Positions 16,427 through 28,874 of a stretch of 64,000 nucleotides of DNA are shown here, one piece after another; positions within the stretch are counted from its first letter, which is position 1; each line of letters opens with the position of its first letter. This stretch comes from Bacteroidota bacterium (GTDB lineage: Bacteria; Bacteroidota; Bacteroidia; Bacteroidales; UBA5342). The stretch is taken from assembly GCA_003249935.1 (NCBI GenBank), contig QKHT01000212.1, positions 124,001 to 188,000 on the forward strand. The letters run 5' to 3'. The notes under the pieces were generated by a model. The model ran no database searches. It was not told the DNA's origin and saw only the letters and a list, made by a program, of their open reading frames with translations. The position numbers and the translations under genes were made by a program.

Positions 16427-16458
16427 TTTGGTAAGAAAGATAAATTGGATTATCTTTG
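16427..16458 (+). promoter_or_regulatory. Strong Bacteroidota promoter (TTTG-N20-TATCTTTG)
   Basis: Both elements of the Bacteroidota sigma-ABfr consensus are present: TTTG at 16427-16430 and TATCTTTG at 16451-16458, 20 bases apart. No protein gene starts behind it; the next ATG of a real gene is 335 bases away and has its own -7 box. It therefore seems to drive the non-coding transcript at 16465. Confidence 0.75.
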
Positions 16459-16464
16459 AAGTAG

Positions 16465-16679
16465 AAAAGCGTTCTAACCAAGATATTAAGATTTAGCCGC
16501 ATCATCACAGATTGATAAACTCAACACGATACAATTTTACGAGAAAGCTTTGGAGAAATAAAGCGGGCCACACCTTCGGGATTCCAATTGCGGAACGGTG
16601 GATACTTGACAGCTTCGGCACTCAAAACCTGTTAACAAGGAGTTTATTCAGATCCTTGGATGCGGCTTTTTCTTTTTTT
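16465..16679 (+). ncRNA. Candidate structured small RNA, about 210 nt, 6S-like outline
   Basis: I do not recognise its family. The segment has a promoter and a U-tract (16667-16679, interrupted by one C) but no credible protein. Its ends pair: AGCCGCATC (16495-16503) with GATGCGGCT (16659-16667), a perfect 9-bp helix running directly into the U-tract. A second long-range helix stacks inside it: GATAAACTC (16514-16522) with GAGTTTATT (16640-16648), 9 bp with one G-U. Inside lie local hairpins: GCTTT/AAAGC (16547-16564), CCACACC/GGTGG capped by TTCC/GGAA (16568-16601), and TTGA-CA-GC-TTCG-GC-AC-TCAA (16606-16625). Length and closed-end shape recall 6S RNA. tRNA, tmRNA, SRP and RNase P signatures are absent. 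Confidence 0.65.
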
Positions 16680-16777: not shown

Positions 16778-16785
16778 TATTTTTG
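16778..16785 (+). promoter_or_regulatory. -7 box (TATTTTTG) of mnmA
   Basis: Exact TAnnTTTG ending 7 bases before the mnmA ATG. The transcript should start at or next to the initiation codon (leaderless). Confidence 0.6.
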
Positions 16786-16792
16786 TGCCATT

Positions 16793-17953
16793 ATGAGTAA
16801 GATAGTTGTAGGAATTTCGGGTGGAGTTGATTCGAGCGTGGCAGCTTTGTTGCTGAAGCAACAAGGGCACGATGTGCATGGACTGTTTATGGTTAACTGG
16901 CATGATCGTACCGGTACAATTACCTCGAGTTGCACATGGGAAGATGACTGGGATTTGGCGCAATTGGTGGCAAAAAAAATTGATATCCCGATAAGTTTGG
17001 TCGATTTGTCGGAAAGTTATCGCACACGTGTTGTTGATTATTTATTTGATGAATATGCCAAAGGACGAACCCCCAATCCCGATGTATTATGCAATAGGGA
17101 AATTAAATTTGATGTTTTTTTGAATGAAGCACTAAAAAAAGGTGCTGATTTTGTCGCTACCGGACATTATTGTCAAAGAGGTGTGGATAAAAACGGTTTT
17201 TATAAATTGCTGGCTGGTGCGGATCCAAATAAGGATCAGAGTTACTTTTTATGCCAGTTAAACCAATACCAACTTTCAAAAGCATTGTTTCCAATTGGAG
17301 ACCTTTTAAAACCAGAGGTGCGAAAAATTGCACTTGATAATAATTTACCAACTGCCCAGAGAAAAGATAGTCAGGGAATTTGTTTTGTTGGTAAAGTTGA
17401 TCTTCCGGTTTTTTTGCAACAAAAATTGGCTTCAAAAAAGGGCGATATAATTGAAATAGAATCGCGTTATTTTGAAAATATAATTGAGAATACAGATTTA
17501 AAATCCCAATCGAAACCATACCGGTTCAGCCCAAAAGATGGGAAAAAAGTTGGAGAACACGGCGGTGCACACTTTTATACCATTGGGCAGAGAAAAGGCC
17601 TGAATGTAGGGGGCAAGTTGTTGCCTCTGTTTGTTGTAGGAACCGATGTTGAACAAAATGTGGTATATGTTGGTCAGGGGCACGAATTTAAAGGTATGAT
17701 GCGCAAAGCTTTATTCATTGATATATCAGAAATACATTGGGTTAGACCCGATTTTGAATTAAGAATTGGAGAAGAACGACGTTTTTTAGTGAGAATCAGA
17801 TACCGGCAACCGCTACAAAAGGCCATTTTAATTCGCAATGAAGAGGGGTTATATATTGTGTTTGATGAATATCAGCGAGCAATTACACCCGGACAGTTTG
17901 CTGCGTGGTACTTAAATGAAGAACTTATTGGATCCGGAGTTATTTTTGAGTAA
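16793..17953 (+). CDS. mnmA: tRNA-specific 2-thiouridylase MnmA
   Basis: Makes s2U34 in tRNA-Lys, -Glu and -Gln. 386 residues from MSKIVVGISGGVDSS; the six codons upstream overlap the -7 box and are not used. The PP-loop is SGGVDSS. The two catalytic cysteines are in NPDVLCNREIKF and DSQGICFVGKVDL. The C-terminal beta-barrel includes HFYTIGQRKGLNVGG. A transcript of its own is likely, as the upstream small RNA ends in a U-tract. Confidence 0.96.
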   Translation: MSKIVVGISGGVDSSVAALLLKQQGHDVHGLFMVNWHDRTGTITSSCTWEDDWDLAQLVAKKIDIPISLVDLSESYRTRVVDYLFDEYAKGRTPNPDVLCNREIKFDVFLNEALKKGADFVATGHYCQRGVDKNGFYKLLAGADPNKDQSYFLCQLNQYQLSKALFPIGDLLKPEVRKIALDNNLPTAQRKDSQGICFVGKVDLPVFLQQKLASKKGDIIEIESRYFENIIENTDLKSQSKPYRFSPKDGKKVGEHGGAHFYTIGQRKGLNVGGKLLPLFVVGTDVEQNVVYVGQGHEFKGMMRKALFIDISEIHWVRPDFELRIGEERRFLVRIRYRQPLQKAILIRNEEGLYIVFDEYQRAITPGQFAAWYLNEELIGSGVIFE

Positions 17954-27371: not shown

Positions 27372-27898
27372 CTTGAAAGAGCAAAGACAAAAGACTGACC
27401 GTGACCGCGTAATCTCAATACTTTGTACTTGATACTTTGTACTTTGCACCATCTTCTCAACAGATTTGTGCCGGTGCTCCTCAAACGGTATCGTCGATCC
27501 ATTTACTATCCTCGCAAAATGGCAGCAGTCTGTTTTGCGCCATCGGGCGAAATGCCGATGGATGACCTGCCTGCCGGAAGGGCAAGCATATTAAATTCAA
27601 CAGAATATACAATGTTTATACTACTACAATTCTACTGATCGGGATAAAATACACCTATCATGTTCGATGCGAAACTCCTATTTCTATAGCAAAAAATCAT
27701 AGGCAATCGGTTGTTTAGTAACCGATGATAATTTTACCAGCAATAAAAAACCGCTGCTAATAGGAAAATATGACGCAAAAAAAATTTGCAAAGCAATTTG
27801 GTTTTGGGGAAAAGTACTGTGTATGTGGTTATATTTGGCAGTAAACGCCTATCTGAGAAATGCTCTTTAGAAAAATAGCAGTTTTAAAATTAGAATTG
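27372..27898. other. Gene-free stretch after the ABC exporter
   Basis: About 530 bases with no credible gene. It opens with short TACTTTG-type reiterations (near 27418-27448, TACTTTGTACTT-like), common intergenic filler in this phylum. It contains a seven-pair hairpin ATCGGTT/AACCGAT (near 27706-27728). A 12-base string TCGGGCGAAATG (near 27543) recurs near 28592. The rest is unremarkable AT-rich DNA. Confidence 0.5.
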
Positions 27899-27906
27899 TA
27901 TCTTTG
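27899..27906 (+). promoter_or_regulatory. -7 box (TATCTTTG) of the antitoxin-toxin pair
   Basis: Exact TAnnTTTG, 16 bases ahead of the antitoxin ATG. Confidence 0.55.
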
Positions 27907-27922
27907 TAGTGAAGATGTCATT

Positions 27923-28126
27923 ATGGAACAGATTCAATTATATTCAAAGCTAAATTACTTACCGACTGATTTAAAATCAGAAGTAAATGATTTCATTGAT
28001 TTCTTGTTAAGTAAAAGGAAAATGGCGATTAAGAAAAAGACACCAAAATTTGGCTGTGCAAAAGGACAGATTTATTTGTCTCCTGATTTTGATGAATCGT
28101 TAGATGATTTTAAAGATTATATGTAA
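27923..28126 (+). CDS. VapB-like antitoxin (DUF2281 type)
   Basis: A 67-residue small protein, MEQIQLYSKLNYLPTDLKSE, with a helical segment EVNDFIDFLLSKRK and then a basic stretch KKKTPKFGCAKGQIYLSPDFD. It ends in an acidic DESLDDFKDYM tail. This is the layout of the DUF2281 antitoxins found with PIN-domain toxins: a short dimer/DNA-binding part and a C-terminal toxin-wrapping tail. Its TAA shares one base with the ATG of the PIN gene (TAATG). The antitoxin frame is intact although the toxin is not. Confidence 0.82.
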   Translation: MEQIQLYSKLNYLPTDLKSEVNDFIDFLLSKRKMAIKKKTPKFGCAKGQIYLSPDFDESLDDFKDYM

Positions 28127-28509
28127 TGGATTTATTGCTTGATACACATTCGTTGATTTGGTTTCTAAATGGAGACGAAAAATTATCGGACAAGGCAAAA
28201 TCTGTGATTGAAGATTCATCAAATTCTAAAATTGTTAGTATAGCTTCGATTTGGTAGATTGCAATTAAGATAAGTCTTGACAAATTTAGATTTCCAGCAG
28301 GATTTAAGCATTTTCTTGACATGGTTGAAGATAATGGTTTCGAAATATTGCCAATAACATTTGAACATACGTTAGAATTATCGACTTTGGAATTTATACA
28401 TAGAGACCCATTTGATTGACTTTCGATTGCGCAAAGTAAGGCAAATAATTTAGTTATTGTGACAAAGGACGATAATATAAAACGATATAAAATTAACGCA
28501 ATTTGGTAA
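28126..28509 (+). pseudogene. VapC-like PIN-domain toxin broken by two in-frame stops
   Basis: Reading straight through gives 127 residues of a complete VapC-type PIN ribonuclease: MDLLLDTHSLIWFLNGDEKL with the first acidic residue (D6), ASIW-stop-IAIKISLDKF, HRDPFD-stop-LSIAQ, and VIVTKDDNIKRY with the last Asp. Stop 1 is TAG at 28255-28257 (codon 44), where the family has the catalytic Glu (GAG would be one change away). Stop 2 is TGA at 28417-28419 (codon 98), where Arg (CGA, one change away) is usual. There are no frameshifts. Without readthrough the product ends after 43 residues, so the toxin should be dead. Confidence 0.85.
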
Positions 28510-28665
28510 AGACAGCCATCCCCCATCGCTGCCACGTATTTTCTACACGTTTCGCAGCATAAATTGGCACAACTTTAAACTTTGTGCCCTCGGGCGAAAT
28601 GACGAAGATTTTGTCTAATCTTTTCAGGATTTTCGGCTTACTCCTAAAATACTTTTTATTTTACA

Positions 28666-28700
28666 AAACTCTTCCAAAGCATAAGTCTTTTGAAGAGTTT
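28666..28700 (+). terminator. Strong hairpin, possible terminator
   Basis: Arms 28666-28679 and 28687-28700 pair at 13 of 14 positions (AAACTCTTC.AAAG type) with a 7-base loop, then ATTTTG. It could end transcripts from the toxin remnant. Confidence 0.55.
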
Positions 28701-28733
28701 ATTTTGTATACAAGCCATCCATGGCAGAATATA

Positions 28734-28874
28734 GCACACCGCTTGTCGACGGTTCGCAATGCCGATATGATTTGCGTATTGCACGATGGTGAAATTGTGG
28801 AGCGTGGCCATCACGATGAGCTTTTAGCTCTTAGTGGCGTGTATCATAAATTGCATCCGTTGCAGACGAAGTAG
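28734..28874 (+). pseudogene. Detached copy of the ABC exporter 3' end
   Basis: Encodes [20 protein letters not shown] and on to the same C-terminal QTK and stop as the exporter at 25530, lacking all upstream ABC motifs. It cannot make an ATPase: it holds only the H-loop and tail. The difference pattern (half synonymous) suggests descent from a second functional gene, not a fresh copy. The sequence 5' of 28734 does not match the exporter gene. Confidence 0.85.

Follow-up and report, generated by a model that had tools for sequence, protein, structure and literature searches.

A structured RNA gene between rsgA and mnmA

The window, i.e., the whole stretch of 64,000 nucleotides that was analyzed, contains a 6S RNA gene at 16495-16673 (+), between rsgA on the minus strand and mnmA on the plus strand; the identities of both neighbors were confirmed by Pfam. 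No convincing protein gene overlaps 16495-16673, and we regard a 94-aa open reading frame on the plus strand as a by-product. Upstream of the RNA lies an exact match to a promoter of the Bacteroidota primary-sigma type (16427-16458, +), with a -33 TTTG element and the -7 box TATCTTTG at N20 spacing. Pairs of these elements with a spacing of 19-21 are rare in the 64 kb, namely six on the plus strand and three on the minus strand. Among Bacteroides-type relatives, TANNTTTG is found in 43 of 46, mostly 20-40 nt before the closing helix of the RNA (P1), against a mean of 4.5 in shuffled sequences. Transcription would start some 7 nt downstream of the -7 box, giving a probable transcribed 5′ leader at 16465-16494 (+). 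At the other end, the U-tract region GGCUUUUUCUUUUUUU (16664-16679, +) stands directly behind the end helix, and the 3′ arm of that helix (16659-16667) probably acts together with 16668-16679 as an intrinsic terminator.

The RNA is located about 120 nt upstream of mnmA and on the same strand, as would suit a cis-acting leader or attenuator of this gene. We consider this explanation very improbable. The RNA has its own terminator, and mnmA has its own -7 box (TATTTTTG, 16778-16785, +), 7 nt before the ATG at 16793. Moreover, when 80 mnmA loci of other genomes were searched with the covariance model R1, described below, the RNA was near none of them, and the nearest relative carries it in a different neighborhood, beside a peptidase-like gene (named by eye). 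A first-pass annotation of this segment, made from the sequence alone, had likewise described a full promoter, the absence of a protein gene, and a free-standing structured RNA rather than an mnmA leader. Synteny with rsgA and mnmA was considered as supporting evidence and dropped, because 0 of the 80 other mnmA loci carry the RNA; that is, this context is local. As a separate observation, since TATTTTTG ends 7 nt before the start codon, the mnmA transcript probably has little or no leader.

Assignment to a known RNA family

A cmscan search of the whole window matched the Rfam family RF01693 (Bacteroidales-1) at 16495-16673 (+), with 76.4 bits and an E-value of 1.6e-10. The cut-off of the family is 60 bits, and the match is full length (model positions 1-179 of 179). 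The window RNA is thus alike over all 179 model positions and above the gathering score, although it is a divergent member, with 76 bits versus up to 189 in our sample. Rfam's own label for RF01693 is "6S-Bacteroidales RNA suggested". Copies are present in relatives from the same order, and the context around mnmA is not conserved, as befits a free-standing gene. We conclude that the 6S RNA of Bacteroidota is represented at 16495-16673 (+) by an ordinary copy; the RNA is known, and its location is new. The likeness to 6S RNA pointed out in the first-pass annotation agrees with what Rfam itself suggests. The same annotation had left the RNA unassigned, with no match to a known family, and had proposed a search with Rfam models; that search corrects it, with RF01693 above its curated cut-off and 6S-Flavo below.

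The 6S-Flavo family, RF01685, was matched at 16519-16645 in a permissive scan (a 521-base search), with 44.4 bits and an E-value of about 1e-5. The gathering score of RF01685 is 85 bits; the window RNA is homologous to this family and is not filed as a member. The match spans the full length of the model (1-108), and the window RNA shares the ACUCAAC ... GGAGUUU frame and the apical arm with 6S-Flavo, but its apical arm is longer and includes a UUCG hairpin.

RF00013, the model for classical 6S RNA, matched in 0 of 31 genomes (the genome of origin and 30 relatives), whereas control genomes do match. The window RNA is therefore not filed under RF00013, and the 31 related genomes offer no detected rival 6S gene for the role. 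The RNA is present in one copy in its own genome, and also in one copy per genome in relatives. A low copy number, with an independent promoter and terminator, is what characterizes the broad 6S class, and here we find one copy, a promoter and a terminator-like end.

Secondary structure and covariation

The closing stem, helix P1, is formed by AGCCGCATC (16495-16503, +) and GATGCGGCT (16659-16667, +), with 9 of 9 pairs of the Watson-Crick type. Helix P2 pairs GATAAACTC (16514-16522, +) with GAGTTTATT (16640-16648, +), again 9 of 9, with one G-U pair. Inside P2 is a central bubble, whose 5′ strand (16523-16540, +) is A/U-rich, variable and unpaired in the consensus, and whose 3′ strand, AAAACCUGUUAACAAG (16624-16639, +), has a conserved CNUGU core in the consensus and a candidate local UCC/GGA hairpin. 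The bubble is followed by helix P3 (GAG, 16541-16543, with CUC, 16621-16623, +) and by the apical arm, an irregular stem with a GC/GC base (16547-16619, +). Within this arm are an inner helix, CCAC/GUGG (16568-16571/16598-16601, +), and a hairpin with a UUCG loop, CCUUCGGG (16573-16580, +). The two 9-bp long-range helices, the outer one directly before the U-tract, and the UUCG hairpin are all as first annotated. Of the closed-end rod with open internal loops proposed at that stage, the rod holds, but the loops were overstated: apically, the RNA forms one long, irregular stem in which several helices covary.

The fold of 16495-16667 has an energy of -46.7 kcal/mol, which corresponds to z = -2.9 relative to 200 dinucleotide shuffles, or z = -2.1 with flanks included. 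On its own, the energy of the single-sequence fold is only moderate evidence for structure. We therefore turn to an alignment of 57 relatives within the order, counting the window copy, produced with MAFFT, i.e., blind to structure. In this alignment, the named structure is paired in 93.1% of cells, versus 38-48% when the partners are slid by 1-3 columns. Changes on both sides are observed for 24 of the 31 pairs, and the covariation score is 0.388, versus 0.172 for shuffled letters. The moderate z-score is the one point in keeping with a chance structure in an intergenic region. That explanation is refuted by the strong covariation, and it also conflicts with an Rfam match above the cut-off and with homologues across the class; we assign it a negligible probability.

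The individual helices differ in how they vary. All seven tested pairs of P1 show compensatory changes (e.g., GC/CG/AU/UA and CG/UA), with 96.9% of cells paired. In P2, 96.7% of cells are paired and the sequence is almost invariant, with a single covarying pair and changes from U-A to U-G wobbles. Thus, the covariation anticipated in the first-pass annotation for both long-range helices is clear in the outer one, but limited to one pair in the second. Because P2 is almost invariant, it appears to be constrained beyond pairing; a role as template for a product RNA would explain that. P3 is paired in 98.8% of cells, and two of its pairs covary. In the apical arm, covariation is seen in helices 4-8. 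The closing stem, open central bubble and apical stem of the broad 6S class are therefore all present with covariation, and an alternative with local hairpins exists.

This alternative emerges from RNAalifold: it recovers P1 together with the helices of the apical arm, but where the long-range form has P2 and P3, it favors local CUC/GAG hairpins. The bubble may accordingly have two states, since each CUC can pair with either GAG. In one clade, the extended P3 pairs UAGAG/CUCUA and UGGAG/CUCCA, read from the alignment, favor the long-range form. In an APC-corrected ranking, P1 and apical pairs are among the top scores; so are some columns that do not pair and whose scores reflect common ancestry. 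The candidate UCC/GGA hairpin in the 3′ strand of the bubble was rejected as weak: it pairs in 75% of cells, which is near the value of the control with slid partners. In the structure annotated for RF01693, P1, P2 and P3 are all absent; hence, the two long-range helices of the first-pass annotation add to the Rfam record.

One gene behind two Rfam families

The model R1 was built from the 57 Bacteroidales sequences only, and was used to search 295 genomes of the class; its three P3 pairs were set wrong, and the remainder of the model is intact. R1 matches in 95 of the 295 genomes, always at one place per genome. This large-set search used strict filters, so that the lack of a match in the remaining 200 genomes carries little information. 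The window RNA scores 139.8 bits with R1, a value to be read with its own sequence among the 57 used to build the model. All seven places outside the genome of origin at which RF01685 matches in the class sample are within the 95 found by R1, on the same contigs and with overlapping coordinates. Cross-matches at single loci agree with this. Because R1 finds every RF01685 locus of the class sample, RF01693 and RF01685 (e.g., at L217, L193 and L371) represent one gene. Neither family alone covers the class; the divergent window copy matches both, and one model can cover both. The outer helices, the link to the second Rfam family and the zapA location described next are not recorded in RF01693.

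Gene order shared with E. coli

Among 108 divergent Bacteroidia loci, 65 have zapA directly upstream of the RNA and on the same strand; none has it on the opposite strand. The distance from zapA to the RNA in these 65 loci is mostly 20-125 nt, and the identity of zapA was confirmed with Pfam PF05164 in four example loci. In E. coli K-12, the 6S RNA gene ssrS follows zapA after 41 nt, also on the same strand, and the literature treats this order as the rule in beta- and gamma-proteobacteria (PMC7641849). Since the order is common to different phyla, it independently supports orthology between the Bacteroidota RNA and classical 6S RNA. That is, gene order ties both Bacteroidota 6S families to classical 6S RNA by context, where sequence models alone do not. 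The window RNA itself has the closing stem, central bubble and apical stem in common with ssrS, but is undetectable with the RF00013 model, and unlike many of the divergent Bacteroidia copies it does not adjoin zapA. In the Bacteroides-type loci sampled, the gene upstream is often rplT (read by eye from sequence), whereas the window copy lies between rsgA and mnmA.

These data bear on whether the RNA could instead be a Bacteroidota-specific structured sRNA (Bacteroidales-1) with another function, merely rod-shaped like 6S RNA. RF00013 detects neither the window RNA nor its relatives, and RF01693 was first published as a motif with no function stated in the main text (Weinberg et al. 2010, PMC2864571). 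Yet the RNA is the same gene as 6S-Flavo, the zapA order is shared with E. coli, and the 6S RNA of Bacteroides thetaiotaomicron, which is the Bacteroides counterpart of the window RNA, is expressed, with two classes of product RNA, as seen by dRNA-seq (Ryan et al. 2020, PMC7366714). We thus regard another function as improbable, and 6S RNA as the preferred identity.

In the genome of origin, zapA is on a different contig (C156) from the window copy. Between this zapA and the next gene, whose N-terminus resembles RNase Y by eye, there is a hairpin similar to P1 of 6S RNA, CCGCATTATTTT...GAAATAATGC-TTTTTTTT (T8). The CCGCATTATTTT...GAAATAATGC hairpin might perhaps be what remains of the ancestral 6S gene.

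A boxA-like motif in 6S leaders

Within 110 nt upstream of the 6S RNA, 58 of the 108 divergent loci contain aCGTTCTTTgAa (boxA-like GTTCTTT) between zapA or the promoter and P1. As controls, the reverse complement occurs in 2 of 108 leaders, the motif itself in 5 of 783 regions upstream of open reading frames, and shuffles give about 1 of 83. Nearly every 16S rRNA locus whose upstream sequence is long enough has the same motif, as do 18 of 30 tmRNA loci. The motif precedes RNase P RNA in 0 of 30 loci and SRP RNA in 0 of 30; these are imperfect controls, as in most of these genes the RNA begins about 12 nt after the -7 box, which leaves no leader. The boxA of rRNA antitermination is established for E. 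coli, and GTTCTTT bears a resemblance to it at the level of sequence. We found no relevant link between 6S RNA and boxA in the part of the literature covered.

The window leader has a degenerate form, CGTTCTAAC (16470-16478, +), at a distance similar to that of the intact GTTCTTT in many divergent relatives, and none is visible in another family member, G002. Because the motif in the window is degenerate, we claim no antitermination for this copy. We tentatively propose, with a chance a little short of even, that the ancestral Bacteroidia 6S gene was a zapA-boxA-6S unit, and that 6S RNA, tmRNA and rRNA share a NusB/S10-type control of elongation or processing; lineages that left zapA, such as Bacteroides and that of the window, would have lost the signal and use their own promoter. 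That the motif precedes 6S RNA, tmRNA and rRNA, but neither RNase P RNA nor SRP RNA, amounts to a statement on the control of stable RNAs in Bacteroidota that can be tested.

Proposed mode of action

The 6S RNAs studied so far imitate an open promoter and hold RNA polymerase in check. We are highly confident that the window contains the only 6S RNA gene of its Bacteroidales genome, with its own primary-sigma promoter, a terminator made of P1 and the U-tract, and a rod fold, and that it most likely follows the ordinary 6S cycle. Its family, structure, covariation, copy number, promoter and context are established here. Transcription would start near 16465 from the primary-sigma promoter and end at the P1 closing stem and U-tract, and the transcript would fold into a rod, with the closing stems P1 and P2, the open central bubble, and then P3 and the apical arm. 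By analogy with other 6S RNAs, it would be abundant in slow growth, mimic an open promoter and capture the RNA polymerase holoenzyme with the primary sigma factor. The polymerase would then copy the bubble into a short product RNA, whereupon the 6S RNA would be released. If E. coli is a guide, the product RNA would start in the 5′ strand of the bubble and run into P2 (5′-GUGUUGAGUUUAUC...), so that the 5′ arm of P2 is the putative template side. For the organism of the window, polymerase binding and this start of the product RNA are predicted. The points against the 6S reading are the lack of an RF00013 match, the moderate minimum-free-energy fold, the local hairpins in RNAalifold, and a copy that is not beside zapA. 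The window RNA is a regulator already known, here in a species that has been studied less.

A second Rfam match in the window

Among the open reading frames of at least 90 aa that overlap 27700-28800, none is an obvious DUF805 gene. In this region, at 28612-28646 (-), the window matches Rfam RF02914, the DUF805b cis-regulatory RNA, with 38.3 bits versus a cut-off of 35.6.
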